From: a virus
Reading direction: 5' to 3' (one strand)
Length of the DNA stretch: 64,000 nucleotides
Virus record (IMG/VR): IMGVR_UViG_3300020172_001405
Location: 1 to 64,000 of that record
In this document: positions 5,260 through 26,083 of the stretch, in pieces
Layout of the letters: each line of letters opens with the position of its first letter
Position numbering within the stretch: the first letter of the stretch is position 1
Position numbers and translations under genes: made by a program
The notes under the pieces: model-generated
Told to the model about the DNA's origin: nothing
What the model saw: the letters and a program-made list of their open reading frames with translations, nothing else
Database searches by the model: none

Positions 5260-5826
5260 CTACGCCTCTTGTATATATGTGTGGATCTCTCCGCCTGAAT
5301 AGATGTCGTGCTTTATAGAGATTTCAATTGCACGTTGCAAAGCCTTTTCGGCGGCCTGGGGTGTACTGATCTTTGAGTAGTTAAGGGCCTCGAGGGCTCC
5401 GAGTGCAATGTCTCCACCACTACCAGCGTAGTAGACTCGACGGGCTTCTCTATCCCAAGAGTAATCATTAAAGATCGGGTAGATAGTTCCTCTTACAGAT
5501 ACAATGAGGTTAGAGTCTTGGAATGCTGCATCGCCATCTTCTTTACCTTCATAACCTGCTTCTTGAAAAGCTTTACGCATGCTAGGTATAAACTTCTTAG
5601 TCATGAATGTATCTAGATCTTCTCCTAAACGTGGCTTAGGAGGTTTCCAACCAAACTGTGTAATGTTTCCACCGCGGGATGCTCCGGAGACTGCAATGAG
5701 TACTCCGTTGTTGTTGACAACCTTAGATGTAGCAAGTTCCATGTAACGTCCGTCTTCATCGGATGCACGAGAGTCGCAACCAATTACTGACCAACCGTCT
5801 CCTTGTATTGCTACAAGTGTTGTCAT
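5260..5826 (-). CDS. Proteasome beta / HslV-type Ntn-hydrolase (peptidase)
   Basis: A 188-residue protein that keeps the catalytic layout of the proteasome/HslV family. It reads M-TTLVAIQ, so removal of Met exposes Thr as the N-terminal nucleophile. With that Thr as residue 1, Asp17 lies in GCDSRAS, and Lys34 in TSKV sits one residue beyond the usual Lys33. The family-specific GSGGDIALGALEAL is at residues 135-148 of the precursor. DIYSGGE near residues 174-180 matches the Asp166/Ser169/Gly170 support residues. There is no long propeptide, unlike cellular actinobacterial PrcB. Subunits of this type assemble into rings that degrade unfolded or tagged proteins, usually with an ATPase partner; none is next to it here. 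It sits between a small His-rich gene (ATGA overlap) and small virion-type genes, two genes from the Hsp20 gene. Confidence 0.85.
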   Translation of the reverse strand: MTTLVAIQGDGWSVIGCDSRASDEDGRYMELATSKVVNNNGVLIAVSGASRGGNITQFGWKPPKPRLGEDLDTFMTKKFIPSMRKAFQEAGYEGKEDGDAAFQDSNLIVSVRGTIYPIFNDYSWDREARRVYYAGSGGDIALGALEALNYSKISTPQAAEKALQRAIEISIKHDIYSGGEIHTYIQEA

Positions 5827-6130: not shown

Positions 6131-6691
6131 CTACCGTAGATCGTCCTTTAATTTAGTACGTGTGATGCTTGATCCCTCGTCCCACTGGTGAGGGCGTTTC
6201 CAGTCTTTATCCTCAGGAAACTTCTTTATAGGCTTCTTGACCGTTATTGTAGGTGTATCGCCCTTAATGGTGATCTTCTTGACTCTTTGCTCCTCAGGAA
6301 GCTCCCTGGAGAGTGATACCATCAAGATACCATTCTTGAACTCTGCCCCATCTACAACCACATACTCTGCCAATGCGAAGGTCTGCTTGAATGCCCGTCC
6401 ACCGATTCCTCGATGTAGGAACTCACGATCAGTCTCTTCCCCACGATTACCCTCGATTACTAGAGTTGATGGTGGTTGGACCTCGACTGTTATGTCTTTT
6501 AGTGTAAATCCAGCTAGAGCGACCTCAATTTTAAAATTATCTTCATTTACCTTGATAATGTTATATGGAGGATAGCTAGTAGTTCTTCCGCTCATATTTT
6601 CTAACATATCCATTTGTCGATCAAAACCGACCATCCATGCCCTAAATGGGAATAGATCCTTGTTACTACCTGTATTTCCGGCAGCCATCAT
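6131..6691 (-). CDS. Small heat-shock protein, Hsp20/alpha-crystallin family
   Basis: ATG at 6691 is preceded by AAGGAG at good spacing, giving 186 residues. The alpha-crystallin domain runs from about residue 40 (YNIIKVNEDNFKIEVAL) to the hallmark A-x3-N-G-x-L (AEFKNGILMVSL, residues about 116-127). C-terminal I-x-I-type anchors (KITIKG, TITVKK) follow. Such proteins are ATP-independent holdases that keep client proteins soluble. Hsp20 homologues are known in T4-like phages and cyanophages. Here the gene is the first of the leftward operon that also carries the proteasome-type peptidase, suggesting a small protein-quality module for assembly or host shut-off (inference). Confidence 0.9.
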   Translation of the reverse strand: MMAAGNTGSNKDLFPFRAWMVGFDRQMDMLENMSGRTTSYPPYNIIKVNEDNFKIEVALAGFTLKDITVEVQPPSTLVIEGNRGEETDREFLHRGIGGRAFKQTFALAEYVVVDGAEFKNGILMVSLSRELPEEQRVKKITIKGDTPTITVKKPIKKFPEDKDWKRPHQWDEGSSITRTKLKDDLR

Positions 6692-7158
6692 TGTATTTCT
6701 CCTTAGTTTCAGCGAGTTAAAAGCACTCCCAATCGGCAAGTGCCCTCAAAGTGTAGCAGCCACTGCCAAAGATTTTGTAATCTAAGTATTCCCCGATTTT
6801 TCCTCCCCAAATAACGAATTGTGACATGCGTGACACTTACCAGGCCACTGCCTAGCTCAATGTGGTCTTGGTAGTCAATCTCATCTGGCGGCCAACTGAG
6901 GCGAAAAGGCTTAAAGGTGCGGGGGGGTCAAAAGAAGCACTGAACTGAAATTAGTTAAAATTATGGTGAGAGCGAGTGCTCGTGGCACTCGTAAGAAATG
7001 AGTAGGGCGGTAGCCTGTCTGTTAGACAGTCTATCGCCTTTTTTCGTGCCTTCTTCGTGATGTGGATAGGGCAGGGTCAAACCTGCCCTATTCGCCATTG
7101 CCTATAACAATGGGCAAGTCGGGAGATAACTGTCTCCCGTGTAACGAAAGGAAACCAA
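6692..7158. promoter_or_regulatory. Divergent intergenic region with several hairpins
   Basis: This 467-base stretch separates the leftward Hsp20 operon from the rightward operon starting at 7159, so promoters for both must lie here or nearby. I could not fix convincing -35/-10 pairs. Visible structure on the plus strand: a GAGTGC/GCACTC hairpin at about 6973-6990, a strong terminator at 7006-7044, an AGGGCAGG/CCTGCCCT hairpin near 7067-7091, and a GGGAGA/TCTCCC hairpin near 7120-7138 just before the AAAGGA ribosome site of the next gene. A 12-codon frame starting at about 6963 (MVRASARGTRKK) precedes the terminator. Confidence 0.5.
7006..7044 (+). terminator. Rho-independent terminator of a short transcript
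   Basis: GGCGGTAG pairs with CTATCGCC (one G-T), then a one-base mismatch, then CTGTCT pairs with AGACAG around a three-base loop. Six T residues follow directly (7039-7044). There is no gene on the plus strand upstream except a possible 12-codon peptide. It therefore most likely ends a small RNA, or attenuates the rightward transcript before 7159. Confidence 0.75.
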
Positions 7159-7707
7159 ATGACTACTCAGTCATTGTTCGACCAGTCCGTAGTGGCTGCT
7201 GCTAATGTCCGTGGTGCTCGTGGCGAGGAGCGTGAAATTGAGCGCCTTGCTAATGAGGCTATTGCCAATGGGTGGGGTGCTCCTATCCCTGCCAGTATCT
7301 ACAGCGACCTCGCTGTAGTTGCCAAGAAGGATGGAACCGAAGTGGTGGAAGTATCACCCCTTCAGTTTGCCCACGCCTTCTACTTGGTTCGTACCTACGG
7401 GTACAAGCCTCGTGACGCCCGCCGTATCGCCAAGCGATTCGGTATGGAGTTGGATGGTGTGTATACATCCGACACAGCACAGGTGGTTCGTGCCATCACC
7501 GCTATGGAAGAGCAATTCGTTGACGATAAGGAATCAGTCCTTATCCCAACCAGCATTGCTGCTATCAAGTCCCGTGTCGCTACGCTTAAGAAGCGTATGA
7601 AAGACGGGGCTGTATCGGATGCCGACCTTCAACAGTTGGCATCTATAAGCGAAGAGATCCGTGATCTCTCCGTTGCCACCACCCCATCACTGGTGGTAAG
7701 CGCGTAA
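7159..7707 (+). CDS. Hypothetical protein, first gene of rightward operon
   Basis: A protein of 182 residues, soluble and mostly helical, starting MTTQSLFDQSVVAAANVRG with AAAGGA upstream. It has a basic stretch (YGYKPRDARRIAKRFGMEL, about residues 75-93) that could be a helix-turn-helix-like DNA contact, and a C-terminal coiled region (AAIKSRVATLKKRMKDG). I do not recognise the family. Position behind a hairpin-rich leader and in front of the accessory region suggests an early gene. Confidence 0.6.
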   Translation: MTTQSLFDQSVVAAANVRGARGEEREIERLANEAIANGWGAPIPASIYSDLAVVAKKDGTEVVEVSPLQFAHAFYLVRTYGYKPRDARRIAKRFGMELDGVYTSDTAQVVRAITAMEEQFVDDKESVLIPTSIAAIKSRVATLKKRMKDGAVSDADLQQLASISEEIRDLSVATTPSLVVSA

Positions 7708-8080
7708 TACTCTAGGCTACTGCCCCCCTAGCCGTACAGCCTGCGTCAGTCCGACCAGGTTATCGGCTAGGGGGTGTGGCTGTTATCAGGGTATTAGGGG
7801 AAGTCAAGGGCTTAGCCAATAGTCCTTGGCCTCTCAACTCTACACGGTACAACCTTCCCCGTACCGTGTGGGGCTGAGGGGTTCATACCCCTACATCTGA
7901 AGATACGGCGATACCTGTGGGAATCAGGAGACTGTTAGGCAATCCCGAAGTACACCCTAACCGCTAATGGCACGAAGATAACTACTCTGTTCTGCCTTCC
8001 ACAATGGGGGGTGGGTATGCCTATGTGTACCAACACAAACCGTATGCCTGCCCCCCATTTCTCCACCCAGTTAGTCCGTG
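7708..8080 (+). ncRNA. Candidate structured non-coding RNA block
   Basis: No gene is present. Structural signals are strong: CCCCCTAGCCG (7724-7734) and CGGCTAGGGGG (7765-7775) are a perfect 11-bp inverted repeat; ACACGGTAC (7842-7850) and GTACCGTGT (7861-7869) form a 9-bp hairpin; the hairpin loop CTTCCCC (7854-7860) is complementary to GGGGAAG (7798-7804), allowing a pseudoknot; AATGGGGGG (8003-8011) pairs with CCCCCCATT (8051-8059). The last hairpin encloses a copy of the 10-base motif CAACACAAAC. Function unknown. Confidence 0.5.
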
Positions 8081-8082
8081 AA

Positions 8083-8185
8083 AGGCGCATCTGTTCGTCT
8101 ATAGGGAGGGTCCTTATAGGTATTGAGTGCTTTCAGCAGGTGCGCCTCTCACTCTCTACCTGAGAGTATTAACTAGGAGGTTGCT
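8083..8185 (+). promoter_or_regulatory. Two-stem leader RNA element, copy 1
   Basis: Stem 1 pairs AGGCGCATCTG (8083-8093) with CAGGTGCGCCT (8137-8147), with one G-T pair. After a CTC spacer, stem 2 pairs ACTCTC (8151-8156) with GAGAGT (8162-8167). It ends in AACTAGGAGG and the ATG at 8186. The same layout recurs at 8824-8910 with base changes that preserve pairing in both stems. It could be a translational control or RNA-processing element. Confidence 0.65.
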
Positions 8186-8413
8186 ATGTCAGCAAAAACA
8201 AACGCCATCACAACAGACCTCACAATAGAGGTTATCAAGAAGTTACTGTCGTTAGAGGCTGCTGGACTCGCATCCAGTATCCTCTGGCAAGGCGAGAAGC
8301 CTTGCTCTCAATGCGGTAGCAAGTTGCACAGCAAGTATGAGCGTAATGCTGCTGCTTGGGTATGCGCGGGCTGTTACAACGAGTTCGCCTTAGAGATGGG
8401 ATGGGAAAAGTAA
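8186..8413 (+). CDS. Small zinc-ribbon protein
   Basis: A protein of 75 residues with two Cys pairs (PCSQCGSK at about residues 39-46 and VCAGCYNE at about 59-66), forming a likely zinc ribbon after an N-terminal helix. AGGAGG lies upstream in the two-stem leader. It is the first of three consecutive small Cys-pair proteins joined by TAATG and ATGA overlaps. Function unknown. Confidence 0.65.
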   Translation: MSAKTNAITTDLTIEVIKKLLSLEAAGLASSILWQGEKPCSQCGSKLHSKYERNAAAWVCAGCYNEFALEMGWEK

Positions 8414-8622
8414 TGGGAGCACCAGCTTGGTTCAAATTCAGGTGCGGTAACTGTAGCGCACCGAATGTAATGACCTACGCAACTACACCTCGTATCAACG
8501 AGGATCGCGTAGAGAAGGTATCTGATAACGGAGGCATCCGTGTATGGCGTTGCCGTTGTACAGAGTGCGGACATTCCACTATGTTCAATGAGCACATAGA
8601 TGGGAGAAAGGAAGCAGTATGA
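8413..8622 (+). CDS. Small zinc-ribbon protein
   Basis: The start is the ATG at 8413, overlapping the previous stop as TAATG; an upstream in-frame ATG at 8356 would overlap heavily. The 69-residue protein begins MGAPAWFKFRCGNCSAP and has C-x2-C pairs RCGNCS and CTECGHS, a classic zinc-ribbon arrangement. Translationally coupled to both neighbours. Function unknown. Confidence 0.65.
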   Translation: MGAPAWFKFRCGNCSAPNVMTYATTPRINEDRVEKVSDNGGIRVWRCRCTECGHSTMFNEHIDGRKEAV

Positions 8623-8822
8623 ACTGTGTCCTCTGTGGTGCGCCAGTAGCACCAGACAGATGGGAGATAGGTAGAGATAAATGCCCACCGTGTGGCAGTA
8701 ACCTAGCCAACGAAGAAGTTGCCCAAGACTTTAGGCTTGTTCTTAATCCCAAGCAAGGCTTTGGCATTGTATACAAAGATTCCCCCGATCTTCTTAACGG
8801 GAAGTCATCAGGCAGACAGTGA
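8619..8822 (+). CDS. Small zinc-ribbon protein
   Basis: A protein of 67 residues, ATGA-coupled to the gene before it. Two C-x2-C motifs (NCVLCGAP at residues 2-9 and KCPPCGSN near 21-28) lie in the N-terminal half, and the C-terminal half is polar. Probably a zinc-binding regulator or RNA-binding peptide; no family is recognised. Confidence 0.6.
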   Translation: MNCVLCGAPVAPDRWEIGRDKCPPCGSNLANEEVAQDFRLVLNPKQGFGIVYKDSPDLLNGKSSGRQ

Positions 8823-8823
8823 A

Positions 8824-8910
8824 AGATACATAGGTTGCGGAGTGCCCGCGTAAAGATAGTCCTGTGTATCTCTCACCCTCTATCTGAGGGTAATAACTAG
8901 GAGGAATAAA
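8824..8910 (+). promoter_or_regulatory. Two-stem leader RNA element, copy 2
   Basis: Stem 1 pairs AGATACATAGG (8824-8834) with CCTGTGTATCT (8861-8871), again with a single G-T pair at the same position as copy 1. Stem 2 pairs ACCCTC (8875-8880) with GAGGGT (8886-8891), followed by AACTAGGAGG and the ATG at 8911. Compared with copy 1, five base pairs in stem 1 and one in stem 2 differ on both sides, keeping pairing intact. Confidence 0.65.
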
Positions 8911-9114
8911 ATGGAAAAAGAATGCGCAGTAATTCACTGCACCAATACCAATCTCGTGTACTCAGGTACTGATGCTCTTCAATTAGGCGGTATCCCCACC
9001 GAAAAGTATTGCCGTCCCTGTGCAATCGCTTACACAGTGATCAAAGAAGCAATGAAACCCCAATTGCCCCCTACCGCAGTGTCCCCTAATAGCACAGCGT
9101 CTACCTTTGCCTAA
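8911..9114 (+). CDS. Small Cys-containing hypothetical protein
   Basis: A protein of 67 residues with Cys residues in KECAVIHCTN and KYCRPCAIAY, consistent with one zinc site. The C-terminus is a Pro/Ser/Thr-rich tail. It is expressed from the second two-stem leader and overlaps the regulator gene that follows (TAATG). Function unknown. Confidence 0.55.
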   Translation: MEKECAVIHCTNTNLVYSGTDALQLGGIPTEKYCRPCAIAYTVIKEAMKPQLPPTAVSPNSTASTFA

Positions 9115-9413
9115 TGGGCACCAACACAAACACGCCCACCTACGCCAACATCTGCGCCCGATTGCGCTATGTGCGACAACTCAAAGGGTGGACGCTTGAT
9201 GAAGCAGCAGCTAAGTCTAATGGCAAGCACAAAGCCAATGTAATCGGTTCCTATGAACGCGGACAGCGGTCAATCTCAGTCAGGAAACTGATTGAGTTGG
9301 CACGCCTGTACGATGTGCCTATTACCGAATTCTTTGGCATCCCCGACCAAAATGATAAGTCACAGGCTCTCATTGACCTGTTGATTGACCGACTACACGC
9401 ACAGAAGGGATAA
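9114..9413 (+). CDS. BldD-like XRE-family transcriptional regulator
   Basis: A protein of 99 residues. Residues about 9-75 match the N-terminal DNA-binding domain of actinobacterial BldD. The segments ARLRYVRQLKGWTLDEAAA, VIGSYERGQRSISV and LARLYDVPITEFFG align with the Streptomyces BldD pattern AKLRAIR..GLSL, VVGSYERGDRAVTV, LADFYGVPVQELL. The large C-terminal c-di-GMP-binding domain of BldD is absent. It could repress or redirect host developmental genes or control the phage's own early region. The 10-base repeat motif overlaps its first codons. Confidence 0.8.
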   Translation: MGTNTNTPTYANICARLRYVRQLKGWTLDEAAAKSNGKHKANVIGSYERGQRSISVRKLIELARLYDVPITEFFGIPDQNDKSQALIDLLIDRLHAQKG

Positions 9414-22065: not shown

Positions 22066-24084
22066 TTAAGCAAACTTAATTTCACATATATCGGTTGTAC
22101 AGTATTCCTCTCCAACAGCATCCAACGCATTTCCATTGTAGATAGGCGATAGGTCTATTGGCTTAAGTTTACCGACGTAATTATTATACTCTTCTTCGCT
22201 AATTTCAGTATATGGCTGCTGAGGATATACGTCGTTACCCTTTGGTAAGAATGAGACGGTCTTCAGACGTCCTTCGTACATGTGTAAGATCGTACCTATA
22301 TGCTGTGACTCCGTATCGGTATTAAACGAGAGAGTAACTGAGACTGAATTGTCCGCCCAGTATGCCTGGGCTAAAGCTGCCAGGTTAGCCTTCTCAAAGA
22401 TAGATACGGATTGCTCTGGGCGTACCGGAACCGACTTGATTGGGAAGTATACGACTGCCGTATTGTTTGGATCCGTTACAGAGTCCTCCACTAGGTACTT
22501 AGCCTTTGTAAAGAGTTTTAACATTGGGTCAGACTTAGCGAATCTAATTGAGCGAAGGATGTATTGTCCTCCGATAGGCCAGTGAACTCCCGGAGTTTCT
22601 CCCGCCAGGATTGACACAGTGCCTGAAGGCTTGATACTTGTAGTCTTGATTGACTCTCTGATACATAGCCATTCTGAGTACATCTTGTCCCACTTCTGTA
22701 CTTCAGCGTAGCCGGTATCTAGCCACTCACGTAACTTAGGGAGTCCCTGAGTATCGGCAAATGCCGCCAATCCAGAGGCAGAGCAACCGATGCGGCGGTT
22801 ACGCTGCATGATGGCGTTAGTGCTTGGCCAGTGAGTTGGGATGAGAGTTACTGTCTTTGCGTAGAGATATGCAAACTTGAGTGTACGCATATAGTCTTTA
22901 ATATCTGTATGGCGGTTGATGTAGGTCTCAACGAGAGTACAACATTCGTAAGACTCCAAAGTTTGCTCTGCACATGGGTTATACCCGGCAGCTCTGTAAT
23001 CTTTATTATTCTCAGGATCGACCAGACGGCCGTACTTCCTTGAAACATCCAACCAGATAAATCCAGGCTCACCGTTTAGGGCAATAGCCTCAGTAAATGG
23101 AGAATAGTCCATACCCACAGTTGCCTCTAAAGAGTTATTAGACATCCAACCCCAGCCCGGCTTCTCTGGGTCATAGGAGTTTCTTTCAGGGAATACTGAT
23201 GGATTCTTTAAGTCAACAAAGTCTTTATCATTAGGCTGACCCAAGGCAAGCTCTGCTGAACGACGGACGTTTCCAGATACTACACATACCCCGATAAGGT
23301 TTGCGATATCTACGATGTCCTTTGTAGTTATTTTCTCTCCGGCTCGTCCCTTAAAGAGATTTGTAAGGGACGTGTGGAGTCTTTCAAGTGGCTCTGATCC
23401 AGCTGCTGTACCGCCGAACGTTTTGATTGGTGTGCCTGCTGGACGGATCTCTTTGTAATCAAATACTGGAGTCTTCGAATCTGGTCGTAGGTAGGCATTG
23501 ATGACGAGTGAGACCGACTCAACCCACCCTTCTCTGGTATCTGGGACGACATATGTTTGCTCACCTTCTGGCTTGTAAATTGTAAATTCTTTGTTTACCC
23601 CTTTGGTATCGAACCCGACACCCACGCCCAACATGGACGCTTCCATTAAGAATGTGAATGGGGTTGAGGGGTCGTTCTTGTTCATATCAGATGTGCTAAC
23701 GAAAGCACAGTTCTGTAGAGCGGCTGAGTTCTTGCCCTCCATTACGAATGGGGTACCCATCATCCAAAGACCTCGACCAGGCGGAGTCCACTTTAGGTTG
23801 AACATCCGGTCAAATGCTTCCTGGGCAGAAGCCTGAGCCTGCTGGCCATTCCAGGGAAGTCGATTGTTCTTGCAGTGATCTTTTTGGATGGAGTACATCC
23901 CCTCAATAACTCGTTGGCAGACATCTACCCAAGTTTCTTTAGTTCCATCTTCCTTTAACCGAGAGTAAGTTCTCATAAAAGTGATCTCGCCTACAGAGTT
24001 TCCTCCGGCATCTGTGTAACCCCAAGGGACCTTCTTATCTCTATACGATGCGACAAAATCTTCACTTAAATGAAACGAGAACAC
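22066..24084 (-). CDS. nrdJ: Adenosylcobalamin-dependent ribonucleoside-triphosphate reductase (class II)
   Basis: A monomeric class II reductase of about 672 residues, reducing ribonucleotides to deoxyribonucleotides for phage DNA synthesis with B12. Landmarks: the catalytic Cys pair partner in LQNCAFVST, the radical/active-site segment NPCAEQTLESYECCTLVE, and the C-terminal redox Cys pair EYCTTDICEIKFA. It resembles the Lactobacillus leichmannii type enzyme. The only start-like codons near the beginning are TTG (24099) and GTG (24084); I prefer GTG with GGAG five bases upstream, reading MFSFHLSEDFVASY. A palindrome lies just upstream. Reduction probably uses the thioredoxin encoded at 31.5 kb. 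Confidence 0.92.
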   Translation of the reverse strand: MFSFHLSEDFVASYRDKKVPWGYTDAGGNSVGEITFMRTYSRLKEDGTKETWVDVCQRVIEGMYSIQKDHCKNNRLPWNGQQAQASAQEAFDRMFNLKWTPPGRGLWMMGTPFVMEGKNSAALQNCAFVSTSDMNKNDPSTPFTFLMEASMLGVGVGFDTKGVNKEFTIYKPEGEQTYVVPDTREGWVESVSLVINAYLRPDSKTPVFDYKEIRPAGTPIKTFGGTAAGSEPLERLHTSLTNLFKGRAGEKITTKDIVDIANLIGVCVVSGNVRRSAELALGQPNDKDFVDLKNPSVFPERNSYDPEKPGWGWMSNNSLEATVGMDYSPFTEAIALNGEPGFIWLDVSRKYGRLVDPENNKDYRAAGYNPCAEQTLESYECCTLVETYINRHTDIKDYMRTLKFAYLYAKTVTLIPTHWPSTNAIMQRNRRIGCSASGLAAFADTQGLPKLREWLDTGYAEVQKWDKMYSEWLCIRESIKTTSIKPSGTVSILAGETPGVHWPIGGQYILRSIRFAKSDPMLKLFTKAKYLVEDSVTDPNNTAVVYFPIKSVPVRPEQSVSIFEKANLAALAQAYWADNSVSVTLSFNTDTESQHIGTILHMYEGRLKTVSFLPKGNDVYPQQPYTEISEEEYNNYVGKLKPIDLSPIYNGNALDAVGEEYCTTDICEIKFA

Positions 24085-24109
24085 ACAGACTCCAATCAAA
24101 GGGTAATAG

Positions 24110-24134: not shown

Positions 24135-25619
24135 TTAGTTTTCTAGATTATCAGAGAGTATTCTAGTGGTATCTTCCTCAGAAAGCCCATCATTTGGTAG
24201 CTGTTTTAAGGTACTAGCACGGTCTCCGAACAAAGCTGACATTACACCACCAGAGGTTTGACGCTCTACAGTCATTCGAACAAACTCTTTATTTTCTTCA
24301 AGTTCTTTTAATTGCTTGATGATTTTAAACAATCTGTCGATCTCCTGTCCGGTATTTGGGTCAGGGTAACCACCATTTAACTCTTCTGCAAATCGAGCAA
24401 AGGCGACTCTAGAGCCCTGCATTTCAATAATTGCGTTTAAAAGAGCCTTTAATTGTTCTTTAGTCTTAACCTCAAGTGGAAGGTTAAAAGCACATGCTGC
24501 ATCAGGTTTCATTGCCGGACAATTTGCTGCAACGAAGCAAGTATTGCATTGACGTAAAGAAACCCCGCTTGTAGATAAAACTGGAGCCTCTTGTATAACG
24601 TCTCTTCCCGAAGAATCTCTTTCAATTATTGATTTTGTACTTACAGAAAATACTGGTAAAGTACGCATTTCTTCAGGTGTTCTTCCCCTAATTACAGCAG
24701 AATCTTTCCGCACTTCTAGGGGTCTATTATCAGGTTCCGTACCACCTGTTTCCGCAGAACCTGGGTCATCCTTGTACGCACTGTTATCAGATAATAGTGG
24801 GACCATATTCTTATTTAAAGATGCTTCGAGCTGTAGGTATGACCAAATGGCTAACTTAGTAACTTCCTTACTATCGTCCTCCATGATCAAATCAAAATCT
24901 AATCCGGCCTTTTCAATGATAGCTTTGTATCTTGGTCGGGCTTGGTCTTTCATCTTCTTTTGATACCTAACCAAACGAGAGCCGTCCCATACAATCGTCT
25001 CTCCACGCATCATAGGGGATAACCACGATAGGGTGCTAGCCGTGCTCAGAGGCACCTGTCGCAGGTTTGCGGGGTTAGCACAAGCTAATCCGTGGAACGA
25101 AGTGTCAAACTGTGACTTCAACGCTCGTGTGCGTGCTGAAAGGGTTAAATCGGTATCTAGTGTTTCTCCAAGGATAGCTACGTGTTCGTACCCTTGAGAC
25201 AGGCTCATCAAAGCTGGATGTCCTAGGGCACTATTCCAAACTGCCATAAATCGGTCAGTTCCGAAGTCTTCCCAGAAAGATTTTCGTTGTTCATTGATCC
25301 AAGCTGGTCCTAGAGCTCTGGCATCAATTTCTGTGGCCATAAAGATTTTATCTTCATTCGTAACTACCCAATCTTGATACTCTCCCGCGTATTCTTCAAG
25401 TTCTCCCACAGATAGAGACTCTTTATTAACCTGATAGCCGCCCCCATCTACGTAGATGCGGACATCATCTGGGTACTTTTCGGACAAAAGGTATTCTTTG
25501 GTCTTGGGTAGGCCGCGCTTTACCAGGCGCCAGTAATTAATGCCAATATGCTTCACTCCGGCATCAATCAGAAGTTTACGGTGTGATGGGACCTCCCCAC
25601 CTAGAAATACTAGATCCAT
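24135..25619 (-). CDS. TIM-barrel (TGT/DpdA-like, tentative) protein with Cys-rich C-terminal domain
   Basis: The start is ATG at 25619 (MDLVFLGGEVPSHRK), overlapping the previous stop as TAATG. Of 494 residues, the N-terminal ~250 have a TIM-barrel look with YVDGGGYQVN near residue 58 and TEIDAR near residue 98. These recall the D-S-G-G-F-Q and following Asp motifs of tRNA-guanine transglycosylases and phage DpdA, which insert 7-deazaguanines. The C-terminal part has CNTCFVAANCPA...AAC (about 350-370), a four-Cys metal site, then a conserved helical stretch (EMQGSRVAFARFAEELNGGY) known to me from other actinophages without a function. The enzyme assignment is tentative. No preQ0 biosynthesis genes are in the window. 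Confidence 0.45.
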   Translation of the reverse strand: MDLVFLGGEVPSHRKLLIDAGVKHIGINYWRLVKRGLPKTKEYLLSEKYPDDVRIYVDGGGYQVNKESLSVGELEEYAGEYQDWVVTNEDKIFMATEIDARALGPAWINEQRKSFWEDFGTDRFMAVWNSALGHPALMSLSQGYEHVAILGETLDTDLTLSARTRALKSQFDTSFHGLACANPANLRQVPLSTASTLSWLSPMMRGETIVWDGSRLVRYQKKMKDQARPRYKAIIEKAGLDFDLIMEDDSKEVTKLAIWSYLQLEASLNKNMVPLLSDNSAYKDDPGSAETGGTEPDNRPLEVRKDSAVIRGRTPEEMRTLPVFSVSTKSIIERDSSGRDVIQEAPVLSTSGVSLRQCNTCFVAANCPAMKPDAACAFNLPLEVKTKEQLKALLNAIIEMQGSRVAFARFAEELNGGYPDPNTGQEIDRLFKIIKQLKELEENKEFVRMTVERQTSGGVMSALFGDRASTLKQLPNDGLSEEDTTRILSDNLEN

Positions 25620-26083
25620 TATTCCCACCTTCTTAAAGCGCTGTCGGTCATCATTTGAATATTCAATTCTCTTTGAGCTTTTACTTCTTCTTTAAGCTCT
25701 TCCCAAGGGCGAACAGGGCGCTTTCTACGAACAAACGTAGGGGATAAGAATAACATAGTAGGTACCCCAGCATTCATAGCCGCGGCAGACCTGTCTACAT
25801 CACAGTCTACAAATAGCTCAACTTCACCTTGAGATCTAGCATAAGCTAAATGACGCATACGTAAATCTTGCCCCTCAAAAGCTATTCTATTATCATACAA
25901 ATCTGCGTAACCTAAGATTAGGTTAGCTCTACACCAATGCTCAGCTTCTTCAATTGTTCCATCAGTAGCTAACACAACGCGATAGTGCTCGTTCATTACC
26001 CGAAATAGCTTTATACCCGCATGTATAGGATCGCCAGTTTCTGTTCTAAGTACGCCGTCTAGTGAGATAAGTGCTGTTGCCAT
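25619..26083 (-). CDS. HAD-like protein lacking the nucleophile Asp
   Basis: A protein of 154 residues with a HAD-type pattern: motif I region ALISLDGVL (residues 4-12), VVLATDGT (about 36-43) and the late FVDCDVDRSAAAMNAGVPTMLFL. In HAD phosphatases motif I is D-x-D-G; here the first Asp is Ser7 while Asp9 remains. A phosphatase mechanism through an aspartyl intermediate is thus unlikely. It lies between the nucleotidyltransferase and the TIM-barrel gene, abutting or overlapping both. Confidence 0.6.
   Translation of the reverse strand: MATALISLDGVLRTETGDPIHAGIKLFRVMNEHYRVVLATDGTIEEAEHWCRANLILGYADLYDNRIAFEGQDLRMRHLAYARSQGEVELFVDCDVDRSAAAMNAGVPTMLFLSPTFVRRKRPVRPWEELKEEVKAQRELNIQMMTDSALRRWE

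Follow-up and report, generated by a model that had tools for sequence, protein, structure and literature searches.

Predicted bistable leader RNAs with an exchangeable hairpin in a lineage of uncultured phages

Two small genes of an uncultured virus, starting at positions 8186 and 8911 of the analysed stretch of 64,000 nucleotides (the window, part of a 101,464-base IMG/VR virus record), are each preceded by two stems and by the same ribosome-binding site, AACTAGGAGG. A preliminary description took the base changes between the two copies as direct evidence for selection on RNA structure. The locus thus raises the question whether these leaders belong to a conserved structured RNA, and how such an RNA might act on the genes behind it.

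Two leaders in the window and a third helix

Base by base, the description holds for both stems, the wobble pair, the size of either loop and the AACTAGGAGG site; all window coordinates refer to the plus strand, unless marked (-). In copy 1, stem P1 joins 8083-8093 (AGGCGCATCTG) with 8137-8147 (CAGGTGCGCCT) around a loop of 43 nt (8094-8136); in copy 2, it joins 8824-8834 (AGATACATAGG) with 8861-8871 (CCTGTGTATCT) around a loop of 26 nt (8835-8860). Both stems measure 11 bp and carry a T-G wobble at the identical position, and five of their pairs are changed on both sides between the copies. The second hairpin, P2, reads ACTCTC-TACCT-GAGAGT in copy 1 (8151-8167) and ACCCTC-TATCT-GAGGGT in copy 2 (8875-8891), with one double change. 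The AACTAGGAGG site, found exactly twice in the window, follows at 8171-8180 and 8895-8904, and serves the genes at 8186-8413 and 8911-9114, which code for a 75-aa small protein with a CxxC motif and a 67-aa small protein containing Cys, respectively, both without a family match. From the end of P2 to the start codon, copy 1 counts 18 nt.

The folding of each copy was better than that of 200 out of 200 dinucleotide shuffles, with z-scores of -4.3 (copy 1) and -4.0 (copy 2). A structure-only scan of either strand of the 64 kb window produced matches solely at these two places, and none in about 175 kb of shuffled sequence used as a control.

The proposed two-stem architecture is real as far as both stems go, but incomplete, as a third helix, P0, which competes with P2, had been missed. 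Likewise, the three bases CTC following P1 are present, but they are not the plain spacer they had been taken for: they consist of a C facing an A and of the start of a 4-bp extension, GTGA/TCAC, here called P1b. In copy 1, GTGA at 8078-8081 pairs with TCAC at 8149-8152, A8082 standing opposite C8148, and the P0 strand CAGTTAG at 8068-8074 pairs with 8156-8162, so that P0 and P1b are mutually exclusive with P2. In copy 2, the 5' strand of P1b is GTGA at 8819-8822, and the P0 strand CAGGCAG (8809-8815), located within the 3' end of an ORF (8619-8822), pairs with 8880-8886, with one mismatch.

A single gapless mirror register, common to the 30 tabulated copies described below, accommodates P1 (11 bp), the A.C mismatch, P1b (GTGR/YCAC), a 3x3 internal loop and the 7 positions of P0. 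Together P0, P1b and P1 make up a long hairpin, A, with a 26-position helix of about 22 bp (7 + 4 + 11 pairs). P0 is mostly CAGRTAG with CTAYCTG, and some copies are very different yet matching, such as L145, where TGTGGG faces CCCACA. The 3' strand of P0 is, at the same time, the loop and inner stem of P2, whose own stem is fully paired in each of the 30 copies and always begins at the same A. P2 loops, mostly TAYCT or ATCT, measure 4-5 nt, P1 loops 26-158 nt. The two folds, A with the long hairpin and B with P2, are predicted to be near-isoenergetic in context, the energy of A minus that of B being on average -2.0 kcal/mol, with a standard deviation of 3.9.

P0 and P2 are best read as alternatives, since a classical pseudoknot containing both would leave zero nucleotides for the crossing loop. 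Such a pseudoknot, with P0 paired to the loop of a closed P2, was rejected as the main fold: P0 takes up the whole loop, and it runs into the P2 stem in the type II copies G012, L145 and L152. A partial kissing state of P0 with the P2 loop is conceivable.

Copies in related phages and covariation

A first search, with a pattern derived from P2, led to five related contigs, and two P1 patterns, leaving P0 and P2 free, led to further ones. At least 30 distinct copies were tabulated, distributed over about 20 other phage contigs, in addition to several diverged copies, from IMG/VR and structure-only scans. Since most copies were collected with a P1-based pattern, P1 sequence conservation and the A.C mismatch are partly forced. 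The structure-only scan, which uses the pairing pattern and no sequence, added diverged copies at L003:13916, L119(-):1958, L143(-):3398, L156(-):8134 and L156(-):7599, and in two of them the A.C mismatch is replaced by a normal pair. The same scan of more distant complete genomes gave mostly chance-level matches and one possible homologue in G015 (L161:6448). A covariance model was applied to 82 records, which comprised pol A relatives and the first contigs; 11 of the 49 larger records contained copies, and none of the 33 smaller ones did.

Homologues lacking the stems, or breaking their pairing, had been named at the outset as the observation that would speak against a conserved RNA. The members of the family keep their pairing through sequence changes, but many other pol A relatives have no detectable copy; the element is therefore lineage-restricted.

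Covariation was evaluated against a null model in which columns evolve independently along a FastTree tree, keeping branch and column rates, over 900 simulations. None of them reached the summed covariation, the two-sided changes or the paired cells observed for P0, for P1 or for P2. P1b, which is nearly invariant, showed weak covariation (12-19 of 900 simulations). Ranked singly, the 7 best of 1653 column pairs are without exception pairs of P1 or P2 (E 0 to 0.57); P0 pairs are found among the top 25, and are significant as a group, none of them individually. Support for P0 also comes from its register, as 88% of its cells are paired in register, versus 33-51% when the strands are slid, and from its partners: 186 of 210 cells pair with their own partner, versus 164.6 +/- 3.6 with shuffled ones, a value reached in 0 of 10,000 trials. 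Wobble pairs at several P0 and P1 positions (for example G-T at helix A 3-48 and 13-38) can pair solely if the plus strand is read as RNA.

A conserved structured RNA under selection is therefore borne out by about 30 copies and a phylogeny-aware test. Judging from this comparison of sequences, the element would be a bistable leader, in which P0 and P2 share a strand and exclude each other, each exceeding all 900 null simulations. The sequence of P1 is kept to a greater degree than pairing by itself would require.

Tandem elements were observed at L156(-) 7599-7850, L003 13200-13420 and L150(-) 9027-9300. In the L003 and L150 tandems, the 3' strand of the first P2 is also the 5' strand of the second P0, which makes a chain of mutually exclusive hairpins.

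With Rfam 15 at gathering score, the window and 13 relative loci matched tRNA only, and no meaningful weak match fell on either window element; megablast and blastn against named phages revealed tRNA similarity alone. The 75-aa downstream protein, used as a query, found no relatives, and literature searches found no paper describing this RNA. A pattern match to GTDB genomes gave one chance match, rejected because its arms are not complementary. Among named phages, the DNA polymerase of the virus record is closest to those of Streptomyces phages (about 40% identity), which makes an actinobacterial host likely. Bistable leader RNAs are a known kind; this family and its exchangeable hairpin are, as far as tested, new. 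They would form a putative cis-regulatory RNA family not described before, in uncultured environmental phages of a widespread group, and both competing folds are supported by comparison.

Exchangeable P1-loop cassettes

Among relatives, P1 is exchanged jointly with its loop while the flanks hardly change: flanks are 91-96% identical, loops about 46-49%, the level of random sequences. The L004 and L005 copies share flanks of 93% and 96% identity and have unrelated P1-loop hairpins, and the same holds for the second copy of L004 and window copy 2 (flanks 91% and 91%). Conversely, G012 and L154 share a loop at 93% identity between unrelated flanks. The comparison indicates that P1 with its loop is an exchangeable unit inside a constant frame of P0, P1b and P2.

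Because P1 and loop move as a unit, the five pairs that differ on both sides in the window, presented in the preliminary description as compensatory, are better explained by two different hairpin cassettes than by step-by-step compensation. Selection on structure holds, but the two-copy argument for it was weaker than claimed; arguments of this type call for caution in general, since hairpin swaps can mimic compensation. True compensation is seen inside loop family A, where GGCGC/GCGCC corresponds to GGCAC/GTGCC.

Loops fall into structured families, and the two copies of one genome differ in theirs. Family A (in window copy 1, an inner hairpin with a GGG triloop, then TTGAGTGCT) comprises window copy 1, the second copy of L004, the first copy of L005 and L115. 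The loop of window copy 2 (TTGC..GCGTAAAGATAGT) has a relative in L143 (family B). Family D includes L007, L144 and L149; family E, L142, L148 and L150; family F, L151, L154, G012 and the second copy of L142. Family F shows inner structure: around an internal loop that stays constant, it has GAC/GTC, and GCT/AGC that changes to ACT/AGT. A stand-alone hairpin resembling the loop of window copy 2, GGGTTGC..GCGTAAAGATAATCCC, occurs at L007:5590-5650 (-), 3' of an element and before the next Shine-Dalgarno sequence.

Loops of this kind could be different sensor domains, exchanged on a common P0/P2 expression platform as in a riboswitch. The structured families, family F in particular, the passage of cassettes between leaders and the confinement of loops A and F to this element, among the IMG/VR matches listed, are in line with that idea. 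It is nevertheless improbable: the 11-bp P1, present in either fold, separates the loop from the switch, so that transmission of binding is hard to see, one loop family precedes unrelated genes, and no Rfam aptamer matched the loops. Riboswitches have a conserved aptamer that binds a ligand; the loops here form structured families and differ between copies. In riboswitch expression platforms and trp/his-type attenuators, mutually exclusive helices share one strand, as here; unlike them, the present element has no U-run terminator, Shine-Dalgarno sequestration or conserved leader peptide, and its variable domain is a swapped hairpin.

The swapping of P1-loop cassettes between near-identical flanks might also point to an element at the DNA level: P1 would be the inverted repeat at the ends of a small cassette, mobile or recombining, and the RNA folds would be incidental. 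We consider this highly improbable, as P0 and P2 covary outside the repeat, wobble pairs favour plus-strand RNA, P2 keeps a fixed distance to the start codon, and neither a target duplication nor a transposase was seen.

A switch frame that stays constant around an exchangeable hairpin cassette is unusual, and it opens the modular evolution of RNA switches to direct testing. It is doubtful, though conceivable, that this phage lineage uses one RNA switch frame (P0/P1b/P2) into which recombination-swapped hairpins are plugged as interchangeable sensors or address tags. If so, genes behind the leaders would be rewired by exchanging a cassette of 50-180 nt.

Gene context and possible mode of action

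The spacing between P2 and the downstream gene is fixed: 17.2 +/- 2.7 nt separate the end of P2 from the start codon in 29 of the 30 copies. In six copies (L007, L115, L143, L147, L151 and L152), a promoter-like site, TTGGCT-N17-TATGAG, lies exactly 46 nt before P0. Other copies are internal and follow the end of an ORF; P1b of window copy 2 includes the stop codon, TGA, of ORF 8619-8822. Downstream genes mostly code for small Cys-rich proteins without family matches, and one gene may occur with or without the element, as MFTLSIKIG.. is preceded by it in G012 and not in L007. A conserved uORF through the leader was rejected, since the frame is open in some copies, such as L007, and closed early in L143 and L151.

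The element most likely controls the following gene post-transcriptionally. The reading we favour, tentatively, is that of one conserved bistable 5' leader, acting in cis on the next gene, in which the opening or cutting of hairpin A leads to a P2 clamp. Hairpin A would form first during transcription, keeping P2 open. It would then be opened or cut, the leading candidate being a host RNase III-type double-strand RNase, so that RNase III-like processing is our leading guess for the trigger; alternatively, a protein, or a ribosome stopping at an upstream ORF, may open it. The freed strand would fold into P2 beside the ribosome-binding site, and P2 may serve as a 5' clamp on the mRNA, changing stability or translation of the downstream gene while leaving the Shine-Dalgarno sequence unhidden. 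A 22-bp helix first, and then a hairpin closing beside the ribosome site, would fit processing and stabilisation best. Several observations count against this leader model: tandem copies (L156, L003, L150) are unexpected for a plain processing site, the predicted accessibility of the Shine-Dalgarno sequence is much the same in the two folds, P1 keeps more of its sequence than its structure demands, P0 pairs reach significance as a group and not singly, and the P1 double changes come partly from cassette swapping.

Masking of the Shine-Dalgarno sequence was not supported, its predicted mean unpaired fraction being 0.49 in fold A and 0.55 in fold B. An intrinsic terminator or attenuator was rejected, as the Shine-Dalgarno region follows P2, without a U-run in the listed copies. 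Since neither fold hides the Shine-Dalgarno sequence and P2 lacks a U-run, both masking and intrinsic termination appear unlikely.

Long imperfect hairpins stand 5' of phage genes at the RNase III sites of T7 and T3 early mRNAs and of lambda cIII. The leaders described here resemble them in this respect, and differ in that both predicted folds leave the Shine-Dalgarno sequence unmasked, the hairpin can be exchanged as a cassette, a second, covarying hairpin keeps a fixed distance to the start codon, and cleavage is putative. Cutting at an RNase III site leaves a 2-nt 3' overhang. A length of about 22 bp is required of RNase III targets (PMC5371410), and hairpin A reaches this size of about 22 bp or more of double strand. 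RNase III stimulates the translation of lambda cIII through a change in RNA structure (PMC5371410). The proposed clamp also recalls selective RNA processing and stabilisation, where the abundance of a transcript is set by stem-loops at its processed ends; those stem-loops are mostly 3'-terminal and not bistable (PMC4423207).

The small Cys-rich proteins encoded downstream, together with the P1 sequence consensus, leave room for another reading, in which a phage or host RNA-binding protein, for instance one of the small CxxC proteins of this gene cluster, captures one fold and regulates its own gene, as in ANTAR and BglG-type antiterminators or autogenous phage repressors. Protein-bound RNAs with two folds are a known kind, and ANTAR antiterminators consist of two hairpins, one of which is mutually exclusive with another structure (PMC3369931), as P2 is here. 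We regard protein capture as possible, though somewhat unlikely, because unrelated genes also follow the element (MTEEELDETLKS.., MFTVSIKIGF..), copies diverge strongly in their loops and in the sequence of P1, and the ANTAR loop features are missing. The ANTAR dual hairpin itself, with short stems and hexanucleotide loops carrying A at position 1 and G at position 4, was rejected in view of P2 loops of 4-5 nt and P1 loops of 26-158 nt; the long P1 and the lack of a terminator are further differences.

The six copies behind the promoter-like site, the two-hairpin layout and the G-rich site after P2 could suggest a transcription element, that is, a signal in the nascent RNA for antitermination or pausing close to the start of operons, with P2 as the pause hairpin. 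The put RNAs of phage HK022 are antitermination leaders with two hairpins, which occur more than once in a phage genome and promote read-through of terminators by RNA polymerase. The present leaders share the two-hairpin layout and the multiple copies; here a third helix competes, loops vary, and copies precede individual genes. A put-like role is quite improbable, as many copies are internal, directly before the ribosome site of a single gene, the distance constraint is to the start codon and not to a terminator, and no terminator dependence was found.

Several minor features were recorded around the leaders. In several of the contigs with the promoter-like site, the latter is preceded by a terminator-like hairpin, CTAGCCG..CGGCTAGGGCTTTCTC. 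An intergenic motif, TCCCCCGCGAAATTTT, recurs with variants shortly after the stop codon before internal copies in L152, L145, L148 and G012. Elsewhere in the window, genes resemble a proteasome subunit (5260-5826 (-), Pfam E 7.8e-7), a small heat-shock protein (6131-6739 (-), by eye only), a class II ribonucleotide reductase (22066-24099 (-)) and a queuine tRNA-ribosyltransferase (24135-25628 (-)). Just 5' of copy 1, an intergenic stretch of 359 nt (7708-8066) folds at -162 kcal/mol, with a z-score of -7.0 versus shuffles, into several long hairpins, and could represent a structured RNA of its own or else a diverged module. Within it, GGGGAAG near 7797 is complementary to the CTTCCCC loop of the ACACGGTAC hairpin.
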